Of a DNA stretch of 5,808 nt, positions 2,708-5,808 are shown piece by piece. A program made the position numbers and the translations under genes. Source of the DNA: a bacterium. GTDB lineage: Bacteria; JAJVIF01; JAGGVT01. Within the stretch, counting starts at the first letter, position 1. Each line of letters starts with the position of its first letter. The stretch covers positions 1-5,808 of the forward strand of contig JAGGVT010000095.1 in assembly GCA_021157815.1 (NCBI GenBank). The letters run 5' to 3'. The notes beneath the pieces are model-generated. The model had not been told where the DNA came from and searched no databases. It saw only the letters and a program-made list of their open reading frames with translations.

Positions 2708-3667
2708 ATGATGAAGCAACGTATAAAATATGGATACCCTCTCGGTACAATTGCAATAGCGATTCTGGCGTATGGCAATACGCTGCTGTTCATCAGCTTG
2801 TGTATTTTTGCAACCTATTTGTTAATCGAATTCTATCAGTTGACAGGCCTGCGTTCAGATCGCCGATTATTCCCCATGAGACGATGGGGATATATCCTCG
2901 GATTGATTATCCTGTCTCTTGTATATTTAAATCTGACAAATTATTTCGATTTCGCAATCGCGTTTTTCATTGTGGGCGCGATGATTTACCGCATGGCGAA
3001 TTTCCATTCTCGAAGCGATGCTTTCCTGCATGATCTGGCTGTTTCAATTCTTGGTGGAATCTATATTGGAGGATTTTTGTCTTATTTTCTCAGGCTCAGA
3101 ATTCTCGGCATCGCGCTCAAGAACGCTGATATTATTCCCACAGGCAGCGGATGGCTTGCGACTATCCCGCTTTTGGGCAATGTCCTCGAAAACGCCGGAT
3201 GGACATCCGGTCTCGGACAGGCTATGGCAATGGGTCCCAACTGGCTTGTGCTTCTGCCAATCCTGGGAAGCTGGGGGTATGATTTCTCCGCAATATTCAC
3301 CGGCGTCCTTCTGGGAAAAACTCCACTTGCGCCAGCGATAAGCCCGAAGAAAACAATAGAGGGAATGGCGGGCGGAGTAATCGGCTGCGGAGTATCAATT
3401 GTAGTTCTCTCAATAATAATCGGGATTTCGTCGAAGTATTATCTTTTTCTTTTCGTGATAGGACTTGTCATGGGGACATTTTCACAGCTGGGCGATTTGT
3501 GTGTCTCCTCAATCAAGCGCGAGGCTGGAGTCAAGGATTCATACCATCGAATAATCCCCGGGCACGGCGGATTGCTGGATAAATGCGATGGCCTGCTGTT
3601 TGTCCTGCCGGTTTGCTACTATTTAATTTATTTTGCGATGATGATAGCCGGGATTCCGACGAGTTAG
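2708..3667 (+). CDS. cdsA: Phosphatidate cytidylyltransferase (CDP-diacylglycerol synthase)
   Basis: CdsA is an integral membrane enzyme that joins CTP and phosphatidate to give CDP-diacylglycerol and pyrophosphate, the branch point for most phospholipids. The 319 residues contain many hydrophobic segments (about 11-41, 60-75, 82-95, 110-128, 178-190, 222-240, 243-258, 296-314). The catalytic half is clear: GSWGYDFSAIFTG with D192, SPKKTIEG (212-219), then QLGDL and SSIKR (267-271), VKDS (275-278) and PGHGGLLDKCD (284-294). Two departures stand out: the final D-R-x-D of the family signature reads D-K-C-D, and one extra residue separates KDS from PGHGG. It is also longer than the usual 260-290 residues, mainly through a stretch at about 131-180. 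Upstream in-frame sequence reaches a stop at 2681 with no other start, so ATG 2708 (or 2711) is fixed; no ribosome binding site is visible. Probably in an operon with the two genes before it. Confidence 0.9.
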   Translation: MMKQRIKYGYPLGTIAIAILAYGNTLLFISLCIFATYLLIEFYQLTGLRSDRRLFPMRRWGYILGLIILSLVYLNLTNYFDFAIAFFIVGAMIYRMANFHSRSDAFLHDLAVSILGGIYIGGFLSYFLRLRILGIALKNADIIPTGSGWLATIPLLGNVLENAGWTSGLGQAMAMGPNWLVLLPILGSWGYDFSAIFTGVLLGKTPLAPAISPKKTIEGMAGGVIGCGVSIVVLSIIIGISSKYYLFLFVIGLVMGTFSQLGDLCVSSIKREAGVKDSYHRIIPGHGGLLDKCDGLLFVLPVCYYLIYFAMMIAGIPTS

Positions 3668-3835: not shown

Positions 3836-3862
3836 GTCATTCCCGCGAAAGCGGGAATCCAT
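3836..3862 (-). repeat. Intact palindromic unit (ATTCCCGC-GAAA-GCGGGAAT)
   Basis: An 8-bp perfect stem (3839-3846 with 3851-3858) encloses the 4-nt loop GAAA, and the unit is flanked by GTC on one side and CCAT on the other. It is an uninterrupted copy of the unit split at 3899-4060, in opposite orientation. A decayed further copy, beginning GTCATTCCGGCGAAA, is visible at 3811-3825. The hairpin resembles short palindromes found scattered between genes in many bacteria, such as the ATTCCC/GGGAAT repeats of Neisseria. The preceding stretch 3668-3810 shows no gene or terminator, only a short ATTGGAAAT direct repeat at 3673-3691. Confidence 0.75.
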
Positions 3863-3898: not shown

Positions 3899-4060
3899 AT
3901 GGATTCCCGCTTTCGGGGCTGTTGAAAAAGGGCTGAATGTAGGGGGTAGGTTTCTGTGCCTACCCTAAATATTGGCATAAATACAGGGCAACCACGTAGA
4001 GTTGCCCCTACGGTCTGGGATATAATAAGCTTTTTCAACAGCCCCTTTCGCGGGAATGAC
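3899..4060 (+). repeat. Palindromic unit interrupted by a 131-bp insertion
   Basis: The left half, ATGGATTCCCGC then TTTC (3899-3914), and the right half, TTTC then GCGGGAATGAC (4046-4060), rejoin into a perfect copy of the unit seen at 3836-3862 if the insertion and one TTTC are removed. With that unit it forms a head-to-head pair with a spacer of about 36 bp, an arrangement like a bacterial interspersed mosaic element. Confidence 0.75.
3915..4045. mobile_element. MITE-like element, copy 1
   Basis: This 131-bp element has perfect 16-bp terminal inverted repeats: GGGGCTGTTGAAAAAG (3915-3930) and CTTTTTCAACAGCCCC (4030-4045). It is bounded by a 4-bp direct duplication TTTC (3911-3914, 4046-4049). 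Inside are two 7-bp hairpins with 8-nt loops: GGGTAGG/CCTACCC (3944-3965) and GGGCAAC/GTTGCCC (3986-4007). There is no transposase; the only open frame is a roughly 69-codon minus-strand run reading through the repeat, which I regard as non-coding. It is therefore a non-autonomous element moved by a transposase elsewhere. Ends beginning GGGGCTGTTG may point to an IS family, but I cannot name it safely. A TATAAT at 4021-4026 lacks a proper -35. Confidence 0.8.
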
Positions 4061-4254: not shown

Positions 4255-5391
4255 ATGAATCAGAATATTTCAGAACCAGTTGAAGAAAAAAAACAAACTA
4301 AAAAAAGCAAAGTCGCGATTATCAAAACGACACCTGAAACTGCTGTTGAAGATTATATCCGCCTGATGGAAATGGCCGACTTCACCGATGCCCTTCCAAA
4401 AGATAAACACACCATAATCAAGAACAACATCTCATGGCATCTCTTCTTCCCGGGAGCAAACACAACTCCGTGGCAGATGGAGGGCACCATAAAAGCGCTG
4501 GATAAACACGGCTATAAATACACTTGTGTCCAGAATAAAACCGTTGTAACTGATGCTTATGCCGGGCAGAAATTGAATAAATACACCGGCATCTATGATA
4601 AATACAATGTCGAGGTCAAATTTAATTTCAATCCCGATGACATGAAATGGATTAGATATGAGCCGAAGGGAAAGATGCTCGTGCTCAATAAAATTTACCC
4701 CAAAGGGATTTTCATTCCCGATTATTTCATTGGGAAAAACATTATCCATCAGCCGACAATTAAATGCCATATCTACACAACCACGACCGGCTCGATGAAA
4801 AATGCGTTCGGCGGACTTCTCGGCACAAATCGACACTACTGCCATACCGACATCCATGAAACAGTCAACGACCTTCTCACGATTCAAAAAGAGATTCATC
4901 CCGGCATATTTACTGTCATGGATGGCACAACGGCGGGCAACGGCCCTGGTCCACGGACCATGATTCCCATCATAAAGGATGTCATTCTCGCAAGTTCAGA
5001 TCCGGTCGCGATTGACGCTGTCGCCGCAAAGATGATGGGATACGACCCCATGGAATTGAAATACATCCGACTCGCTCATGAAAGCGGGCTTGGATGCGGG
5101 GTCATCGATGAAATGGAAATTGTCGGTGAGGATATCAACGATTTTAACTGGAAATTCCATGTCGGCGACAACATCGCAAGCATAGCCGGCGATCTATTCT
5201 GGTTCGGCCCGCTTAAATTCCTGCAGAATCTAATGTTCCATACTCCCATCGTTTATATTTTCGTCTGGGCAAGCGCGATTTATCATGACAAGTGGTGGTA
5301 TCCAACAACGGGCAAGAAAAGAATCAACGAATGGTATAAAACCCGCTGGGGCAAAAAATTCCTCGATTGGGACAAGCAGTTCGAGGATTAG
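4255..5391 (+). CDS. DUF362 domain-containing protein
   Basis: The protein has 378 residues and fits the DUF362 family (PF04015), whose biochemical role is not settled. Family features in order: VAIIKTTP (20-27), an IKNNISWH stretch (55-62), NTTPWQMEGTIKALDKHGY (69-87, the usual 'T.p..v.a.i..l...G'), IIHQPTIKCH (163-172), MKNAFGGLLG (181-190), a histidine-rich segment HYCHTDIHE (194-202), VMDGTTAGNGPGPR (221-234) and ILASSDPVAIDAVAAKMMGY (244-263), then GLGCGVIDEMEIVG (278-291). Many relatives carry an added 4Fe-4S ferredoxin domain; here the four cysteines (91, 171, 196, 281) are scattered, so none is present. Residues about 300-378 form a C-terminal extension with a hydrophobic stretch around 327-343 (MFHTPIVYIFVWASAIY) and an aromatic/basic tail, suggesting membrane association. 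No signal peptide; the first 18 residues are polar and lysine-rich. It stands alone with its own promoter and lies between two direct copies of a MITE-like element. Confidence 0.85.
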   Translation: MNQNISEPVEEKKQTKKSKVAIIKTTPETAVEDYIRLMEMADFTDALPKDKHTIIKNNISWHLFFPGANTTPWQMEGTIKALDKHGYKYTCVQNKTVVTDAYAGQKLNKYTGIYDKYNVEVKFNFNPDDMKWIRYEPKGKMLVLNKIYPKGIFIPDYFIGKNIIHQPTIKCHIYTTTTGSMKNAFGGLLGTNRHYCHTDIHETVNDLLTIQKEIHPGIFTVMDGTTAGNGPGPRTMIPIIKDVILASSDPVAIDAVAAKMMGYDPMELKYIRLAHESGLGCGVIDEMEIVGEDINDFNWKFHVGDNIASIAGDLFWFGPLKFLQNLMFHTPIVYIFVWASAIYHDKWWYPTTGKKRINEWYKTRWGKKFLDWDKQFED

Positions 5392-5455
5392 AATTAAACA
5401 GTTGATGCTAAATTGCACTCGAATATAGAGTAAAGAAAAATGGATTCCCGCTTTC

Positions 5456-5586
5456 GCGGCTGTTGAAAAAGCTCTGAATGTAGGGGGTAGGTCTCTGTGC
5501 CTACCCTAAATATTGGCATAAATACAGGGCAACCACGGAGAGTTACCCCTACGGTCTGGGATATAATGGGCTTTTTCAACATCCCC
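5456..5586. mobile_element. MITE-like element, copy 2
   Basis: This is the second 131-bp copy, in the same orientation as the one at 3915-4045. Its ends, GCGGCTGTTGAAAAAG (5456-5471) and CTTTTTCAACATCCCC (5571-5586), carry two mismatches. TTTC flanks both sides (5452-5455, 5587-5590). Compared over 160 bases including flanks (3891-4050 against 5432-5591) I count 9 differences, about 94% identity. The left flank again has the left half of the palindromic unit (ATTCCCGC, 5444-5451), but the expected right arm GCGGGAAT reads GCTCGACT, so it is decayed or replaced. It starts 64 bp after the DUF362 stop. Confidence 0.75.
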
Positions 5587-5632
5587 TTTCGCTCGACTTT
5601 CGACATTTAAGGCTGCCTAAATACAATTAAAC

Positions 5633-5735
5633 CGGGTGCCGCCCATACAGCCGTCCCGGCTTTATGGGTGTTTGAAGCAAGGTTACGCATTTCACCCACA
5701 AATCACAAAAAGACGTGATGTGTGGGCGGCACCCG
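5633..5735. repeat. 103-bp structured element that can fold into a three-way junction
   Basis: An outer perfect 13-bp inverted repeat, CGGGTGCCGCCCA (5633-5645) and TGGGCGGCACCCG (5723-5735), encloses two further hairpins. Hairpin 1 (5642-5668) pairs CCCATACAGCCG with CGGCTTTATGGG around a TCC loop, 11 of 12 pairs. Hairpin 2 (5695-5726) pairs CCCACAAATCAC with GTGATGTGTGGG around AAAAAGAC, again 11 of 12. If both form, a 9-bp outer stem (5633-5641/5727-5735) remains and abuts both hairpins exactly, with a 26-nt single strand between them. There is no reading frame. It may be a mobile palindromic element or a structured RNA; copies elsewhere would favour the former. The bases after it, to the window end, show no gene. 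Confidence 0.6.
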
Positions 5736-5808
5736 AGGTTTATAAATTCGATCTCTTGTTGTTTTACTACACTCAAATAAAAACACAGCCGAATTTAAAG
5801 TCGTTTCT

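Follow-up and report, generated by a model that had tools for sequence, protein, structure and literature searches.

The 131-bp element at positions 3915–4045 of the window (the whole 5,808-nt stretch analysed here, contig C121 of a 3.2-Mb assembly of 221 contigs) is very probably a MITE, a non-autonomous derivative of an IS1182-family insertion sequence (IS) with a DDE transposase that inserts at the dyad of short palindromes. The element is present in many copies, and the duplications that flank it coincide exactly with the loops of hairpins. Its palindromic targets are unrelated in sequence and occur empty as well as occupied, and an intact IS1182 transposase is found elsewhere between what are, by sequence comparison, the same ends. 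Hairpin targeting is already known in the IS1182 family, from IS1272; the present case differs in that the loop is duplicated and both arms are kept.

The occupied site is read on the forward strand. It consists of the left arm of the target hairpin, ATTCCCGC (3903–3910); a first copy of the loop and target duplication, TTTC (3911–3914); the MITE, to which no strand is assigned; a second TTTC (4046–4049); and the right arm, GCGGGAAT (4050–4057). The 16-bp terminal inverted repeats of the element are GGGGCTGTTGAAAAAG and CTTTTTCAACAGCCCC. When the element and one TTTC are excised in silico, the result is ATTCCCGC-TTTC-GCGGGAAT, which folds as a single strand into an 8-bp stem free of mismatches, closed by a 4-nt loop (−8.8 kcal/mol, z −4.4). 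The first-pass annotation had claimed as much—a perfect hairpin on excision, with the duplicated TTTC as its loop—and the coordinates of arms, loops and element all agree with it. It had also placed an intact copy of the hairpin 36 bp away. The copy exists, empty, at 3839–3858 (ATTCCCGC-GAAA-GCGGGAAT, forward strand, oriented opposite to the occupied site), and belongs to the same REP family; the distance needs correcting, as the stems are 44 bp apart and the gap depends on the repeat boundary chosen. With up to two mismatches allowed, this is the sole near match to the restored hairpin in the window (exact, on the other strand), against 0 expected from a shuffle control. Both insertions in the window, this one and a second at 5456–5586, lie between genes. 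The genes themselves (894–1292, 1319–2629, 2708–3667 and 4255–5391) have what we take to be an ordinary chromosomal look; presumably their products include a YqgF/RuvX-type protein, a zinc-dependent phospholipase-like protein, a CdsA-type transferase and a DUF362-type protein.

Members of the CGTC-1 class of REPs have a CGTC head, an 8-bp stem, a 4-nt loop and a CCA tail (PMC3733652). Compared with that description, the target hairpin belongs to this class: read from the head it is CGTC-ATTCCCGC-GAAA-GCGGGAAT-CCA. The REP family is the main target of the element and is distinct from the element itself; the study that described the class found no transposase regularly associated with CGTC repeats (PMC3733652). 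In the intact CGTC-type copies that were read from the head, the loop is nearly always GAAA, and occupied sites of this type carry a duplicated GAAA in 11 cases and, where read in the opposite direction, a duplicated TTTC in 8. The main hairpin (ATTCCCGCGAAAGCGGGAAT) occurs empty at 61 places, and a second hairpin (GCGGGCATCCTGCCTGC, i.e. GCGGGC-ATCCT-GCCTGC) occurs empty at 59, both with up to two mismatches; the reversed control of each gave 0. ‘Empty sites’ here are paralogous repeats, rather than the same locus of a sister strain. Since these hairpins are intact and empty at many places, element and hairpin are separate repeats.

That the element is a MITE with 16-bp ends, as first annotated, holds true. 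It is short (131 bp), it encodes no transposase, it has terminal inverted repeats and target-site duplications, it shares its ends with an autonomous IS, and it is present in dozens of copies. Its 15-bp end is matched at 216 places in the 3.2-Mb source assembly with no more than one mismatch (reversed control, 0), and the same ends enclose different interiors in forms of about 166, 190, 210 and 453 bp in the genome from which the window comes. A first set of 69 distinct complete insertions, from three genomes, comprised 55 from the window genome and 14 from two genomes of the same class. Exact duplications of 4–6 nt flank 44 of the 66 complete insertions of the window genome. The tables of copies were built from regions around the matches, and the counts of insertions drawn from them refer to samples rather than to a census.

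Tabulating the flanks, as the first-pass annotation had suggested, shows that most copies occupy the loop of a hairpin and have that loop repeated on either side, in many hairpins of unrelated sequence. To score the sites, we counted complementary pairs among the five positions immediately outside each exact 4–6 nt duplication, and called a site palindromic if at least four of the five could pair. By this measure 35 of the 44 duplication-bearing insertions of the window genome are palindromic about their duplication, versus 1.7% of 40,000 random sites (binomial, 1e-53); across all genomes, 44 of 67 do. As a single REP family accounts for many sites (28 of the 44 with a duplication in the window genome), the 22 target families were also sampled at one random member apiece, and about 10 of these 22 are palindromic (1e-12). 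When the two large REP families are left out altogether, 14 of 30 insertions still are (2e-17). A separate stem score agrees, being at least 7 in 33 of 55 insertions versus 0.7% of 20,000 random sites.

The target sequences are unrelated to one another: CCCGC-(GAAA)-GCGGG, GCGGGC-(ATCCT)-GCCTGC, ACCATGC-(TTTA)-GCATGGT, GCGCCGCA-(GTAGCC)-TGCGGCGC, TGTGC-(TGGAA)-GCACA, GGGC-(GTCTC)-GCCC, GGGG-(GTTGT)-CCCC and GGGG-(TCAGA)-CCCC, where brackets mark the duplicated letters. At every one of them the duplication covers either the loop alone or the loop together with the pair that closes it, and its midpoint falls on the dyad. The loop is duplicated in the same way at ATCCT, TTTA/TAAA, TTAAA, GTAGCC, TGGAA, GTCTC, GTTGT and TCAGA targets. 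The parity of the duplication tracks the dyad: it is 4 or 6 nt long at even-centred palindromes and 5 nt at odd-centred ones. At least ten unrelated palindromes hold the same element, and the same ends are also found in unrelated palindromes of other genomes. Two observations count against palindrome targeting: in a cross-phylum set only 5 of 15 duplication-bearing sites reach four of five pairs, and a few duplications, such as GCAT, TCAA, TGAC and CCGGA, lie outside any palindrome.

A second hairpin of the same family is occupied further along the window. Its left arm (5444–5451, forward strand) is followed by the loop and duplication TTTC (5452–5455, with the second copy at 5587–5590, forward strand), which enclose a further 131-bp MITE (5456–5586, no strand assigned), one on which the first-pass annotation of the hairpin insertion is silent. 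This copy is about 94% identical to that at 3915–4045 and sits in the same type of site, where another MITE begins in place of the right arm. The newcomer (5592–5808, no strand assigned) stands directly behind the first MITE and is cut by the end of the contig; it represents a second family, 286 bp long with ends CTCGACTTTCGACATTT, that has no sequence relation to the 131-bp family yet occupies the same hairpin loops. On contig C146 the two stand in tandem, as GCGGGC-ATCCT-[MITE2]-ATCCT-[MITE1]-ATCCT-GCCTGC, MITE1 being the 131-bp family and MITE2 the second. Further sites of the second family are L213:1501–1786, L220 and L215. A search for a partner transposase with CTCGACTTTCGACATTT ends identified none.

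The full-length IS with the same ends, for which the first-pass annotation had proposed to look, was found in a Hydrogenedentota MAG. Two 1593-bp elements there have exact GGGGCTGTTGAAAAA ends (identical over 15 bp) and a full, intact IS1182-family transposase, scoring 344.6 and 338.5 bits against NCBIfam NF033551 (cut-off, 270). One of the two sits in CATGGGC-(GTCTC)-GCCCATG with a 5-nt duplication. The same MAG has an intact CATGGGC-GTCTC-GCCCATG palindrome inside a MITE (L176:1238–1257). A 1564-bp relative with nearly the same ends occupies TGGGG-(GTTGT)-CCCCA in a Proteobacteria MAG. In all, the elements of two genomes other than that of the window exceed the NF033551 cut-off. The partner transposase has the Pfam domains DUF772 and DDE_Tnp_1_6. 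A scan of the named genomes for paired ends of the element returned 21 contigs, mainly from MAGs labelled Planctomycetota or Phycisphaerae, and also from Deltaproteobacteria, Armatimonadota, Hydrogenedentota, Actinomycetota and Proteobacteria; a protein scan of the named genomes with the degenerate C-terminal piece described below gave no matches.

In the window genome (assembly 90.9% complete) no intact partner transposase with these ends was found, only degenerate relatives. One of these, 995 bp long and bounded by the same ends, retains two collinear pieces of an IS1182 transposase (NCBIfam 1.8e-32 and 1.1e-19; Pfam DUF772 and DDE_Tnp_1_6); this transposase is interrupted and internally deleted, and is 41–44% identical to the intact one. 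A further IS1182 transposase fragment lies on contig C56. The link between these ends and IS1182 is therefore direct in other genomes, through the intact elements, and is made in the window genome by the remnant. An IS1182/IS5-like element on contig C155 (L088), with an open transposase frame, was considered as the partner and set aside, its ends being different (GGTACCGTTGCAAAAG). The first-pass annotation had likened the case to IS1397, which is an IS3-family element. No IS3-family transposase lies between these ends, and IS1397 is ruled out as the closest relative, for the same-ended partner transposase is of the IS1182 family, where IS1272 already targets hairpins.

How might such insertions arise? 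Most likely, a transposase dimer would transfer the strands at positions placed evenly about the dyad, namely the two stem/loop junctions, one on each strand of the palindrome; gap repair would then duplicate the 4–6 nt loop and leave one hairpin arm on each side of the element. We infer that an IS1182-type transposase moved the copies of the window genome, that its cuts fall at the stem/loop junctions, and that the enzyme reads palindromy, or an extruded hairpin, rather than sequence. A likely benefit to the element is that its insertions should do the host little harm, since REP hairpins are numerous and lie for the most part in intergenic DNA.

The earlier proposal of a transposase that recognises DNA hairpins is supported, with a reservation: palindromic hairpins are indeed the targets, and recognition of the hairpin as such is suggested rather than read off the sites, because a palindromic duplex bound by a symmetric transposase gives the same pattern. 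In its broadest form the proposal is that a widespread subgroup of IS1182 transposases reads shape: such enzymes would accept extruded hairpins or cruciforms of any sequence, join the element where stem and loop meet, and double precisely the unpaired nucleotides of the loop, 4–6 in number. We put this at just under an even chance. Alternatively, and to our minds quite possibly, if at rather less than even, a symmetric dimer binds the palindromic duplex with no extrusion at all, and the loop is duplicated by cuts symmetric about the dyad. The parity of duplication lengths follows the dyad, as symmetry alone would give, and Tobes and Pareja propose that REP-targeting transposases may bind palindromes in the manner of regulators (PMC1525189). 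Parity fits hairpin and duplex equally, however, and the targets have palindromy in common and nothing of their sequence, which is unusual for duplex binding and favours the recognition of shape. The positions of the cuts also shift with the size of the loop, and for IS1272, another IS1182-family member, the choice of hairpins is reported to be independent of their primary sequence.

Other explanations dispense with a palindrome-seeking IS1182 transposase. Loops might be generally fragile or hot sites—through extruded hairpins, breaks or replication stalls—that are open to several elements, so that specificity resides in the hairpin. The presence of the second MITE family, with its unrelated CTCGACTTTCGACATTT ends, in the same loops and sometimes in tandem with the first, is what one would expect of such sites; the transposase of that family could, however, itself be a relative of the first. 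Elsewhere, moreover, elements with the same ends choose palindromes of different sequence, and IS1272 does likewise in staphylococci, so the preference travels with the family, and we consider fragility alone unlikely. That the pattern is an artefact of assembling repeats in a short-read MAG is very improbable: many contigs do end within the element, and mixed flanks occur in a number of copies, but misjoining would not yield matching arms and an exactly doubled loop in 35 cases, and the same pattern recurs in independent assemblies. Least probable of all, to the point of being hardly credible, is that the element and the hairpin halves around it are parts of a single larger repeat and transpose together, an outcome that the first-pass annotation had named as fatal to its proposal. 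The concentration of 28 duplication-bearing copies in a single REP family, and the short composite repeats around the REP that copies have in common, could be read in this way. The idea fails because the hairpins occur empty and the element occurs in unrelated hairpins with unrelated outer flanks: over 100 places carry the two main hairpins without the element, the same element is found in ten or more different palindromes, the flanks beyond the hairpin vary from copy to copy, and the duplications are those of the host hairpin's own loop.

To our knowledge, few DDE transposases choose their targets by palindromic structure, and IS1272 is the best case. IS1272 and TnSha1, IS1182-family elements of staphylococci, insert into hairpins of unrelated sequence and make no duplication (PMC5678879, PMC4923244). 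They resemble the present element in transposase family and in their use of hairpin or inverted-repeat targets that are unrelated in sequence. They differ in outcome: IS1272 removes the stem-loop wholly or partly, whereas the present element keeps both arms and doubles the loop, most copies retaining all three parts rather than showing a replaced stem-loop. In PMC5678879 loop duplication is drawn solely as a hypothetical alternative, ‘pathway c’, and some IS1182 members target palindromes according to a review cited in the same paper. In the openly accessible papers searched, we found no description of loop-duplicating insertion by the IS1182 family. A MITE derived from ISMac2 in Methanosarcina acetivorans is likewise of the IS1182 family (160 bp, with 4-bp direct repeats), and is listed without a target structure (PMC3852290). 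Insertion within REP palindromes is shared with IS1397 and ISKpn1 (IS3 family), ISPpu9, ISPpu10, IS621 and ISPa11 (IS110) and ISRm22 (IS4) (PMC1525189); these have transposases of other families and are each described as tied to the REP sequence of their host, whereas the present element uses many unrelated palindromes.

Because IS1272 destroys its target, the points at which it joins have to be worked out from the deletions that it leaves. In the present case both arms survive together with the doubled loop, and the positions of the cuts can be taken straight from the sequence of dozens of sites, with loops of 4, 5 and 6 nt. The preserved sites, together with an identified intact element, make the question ‘hairpin or duplex palindrome’ testable. 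If shape is indeed what the enzyme reads, then the present element and IS1272 would exemplify one structure-guided mechanism of transposition with two outcomes, loop duplication and stem-loop replacement. The window genome is also an example of MITEs filling the REP hairpins of a genome, with two MITE families using the same loops.

It also counts against this reading that the remaining 22 of the 66 complete insertions of the window genome, a third, have no exact duplication. In some the flanks differ by a single letter; others join halves of two different hairpins, or two head halves (GAAA..TTTC). Some apparently mixed flanks are double insertions with the second MITE family (CTCGACTTTCGACATTT), and several cases of mixed or head-head flanks could result from copies recombining with each other, from insertion of one element into another, or from misassembly of short reads. 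We first read the head-head copies as the product of arm-copying repair of a quasi-palindrome. This reading has lost favour: since the symmetry ends near the edge of the repeat, an exchange between inverted copies, or an assembly error, is at least as good an explanation. Copies with perfectly or near-perfectly inverted flanks and no duplication occur at L011, L009, L016, L017, L053 and L079 in the window genome, and at L194 and L178 in other genomes.
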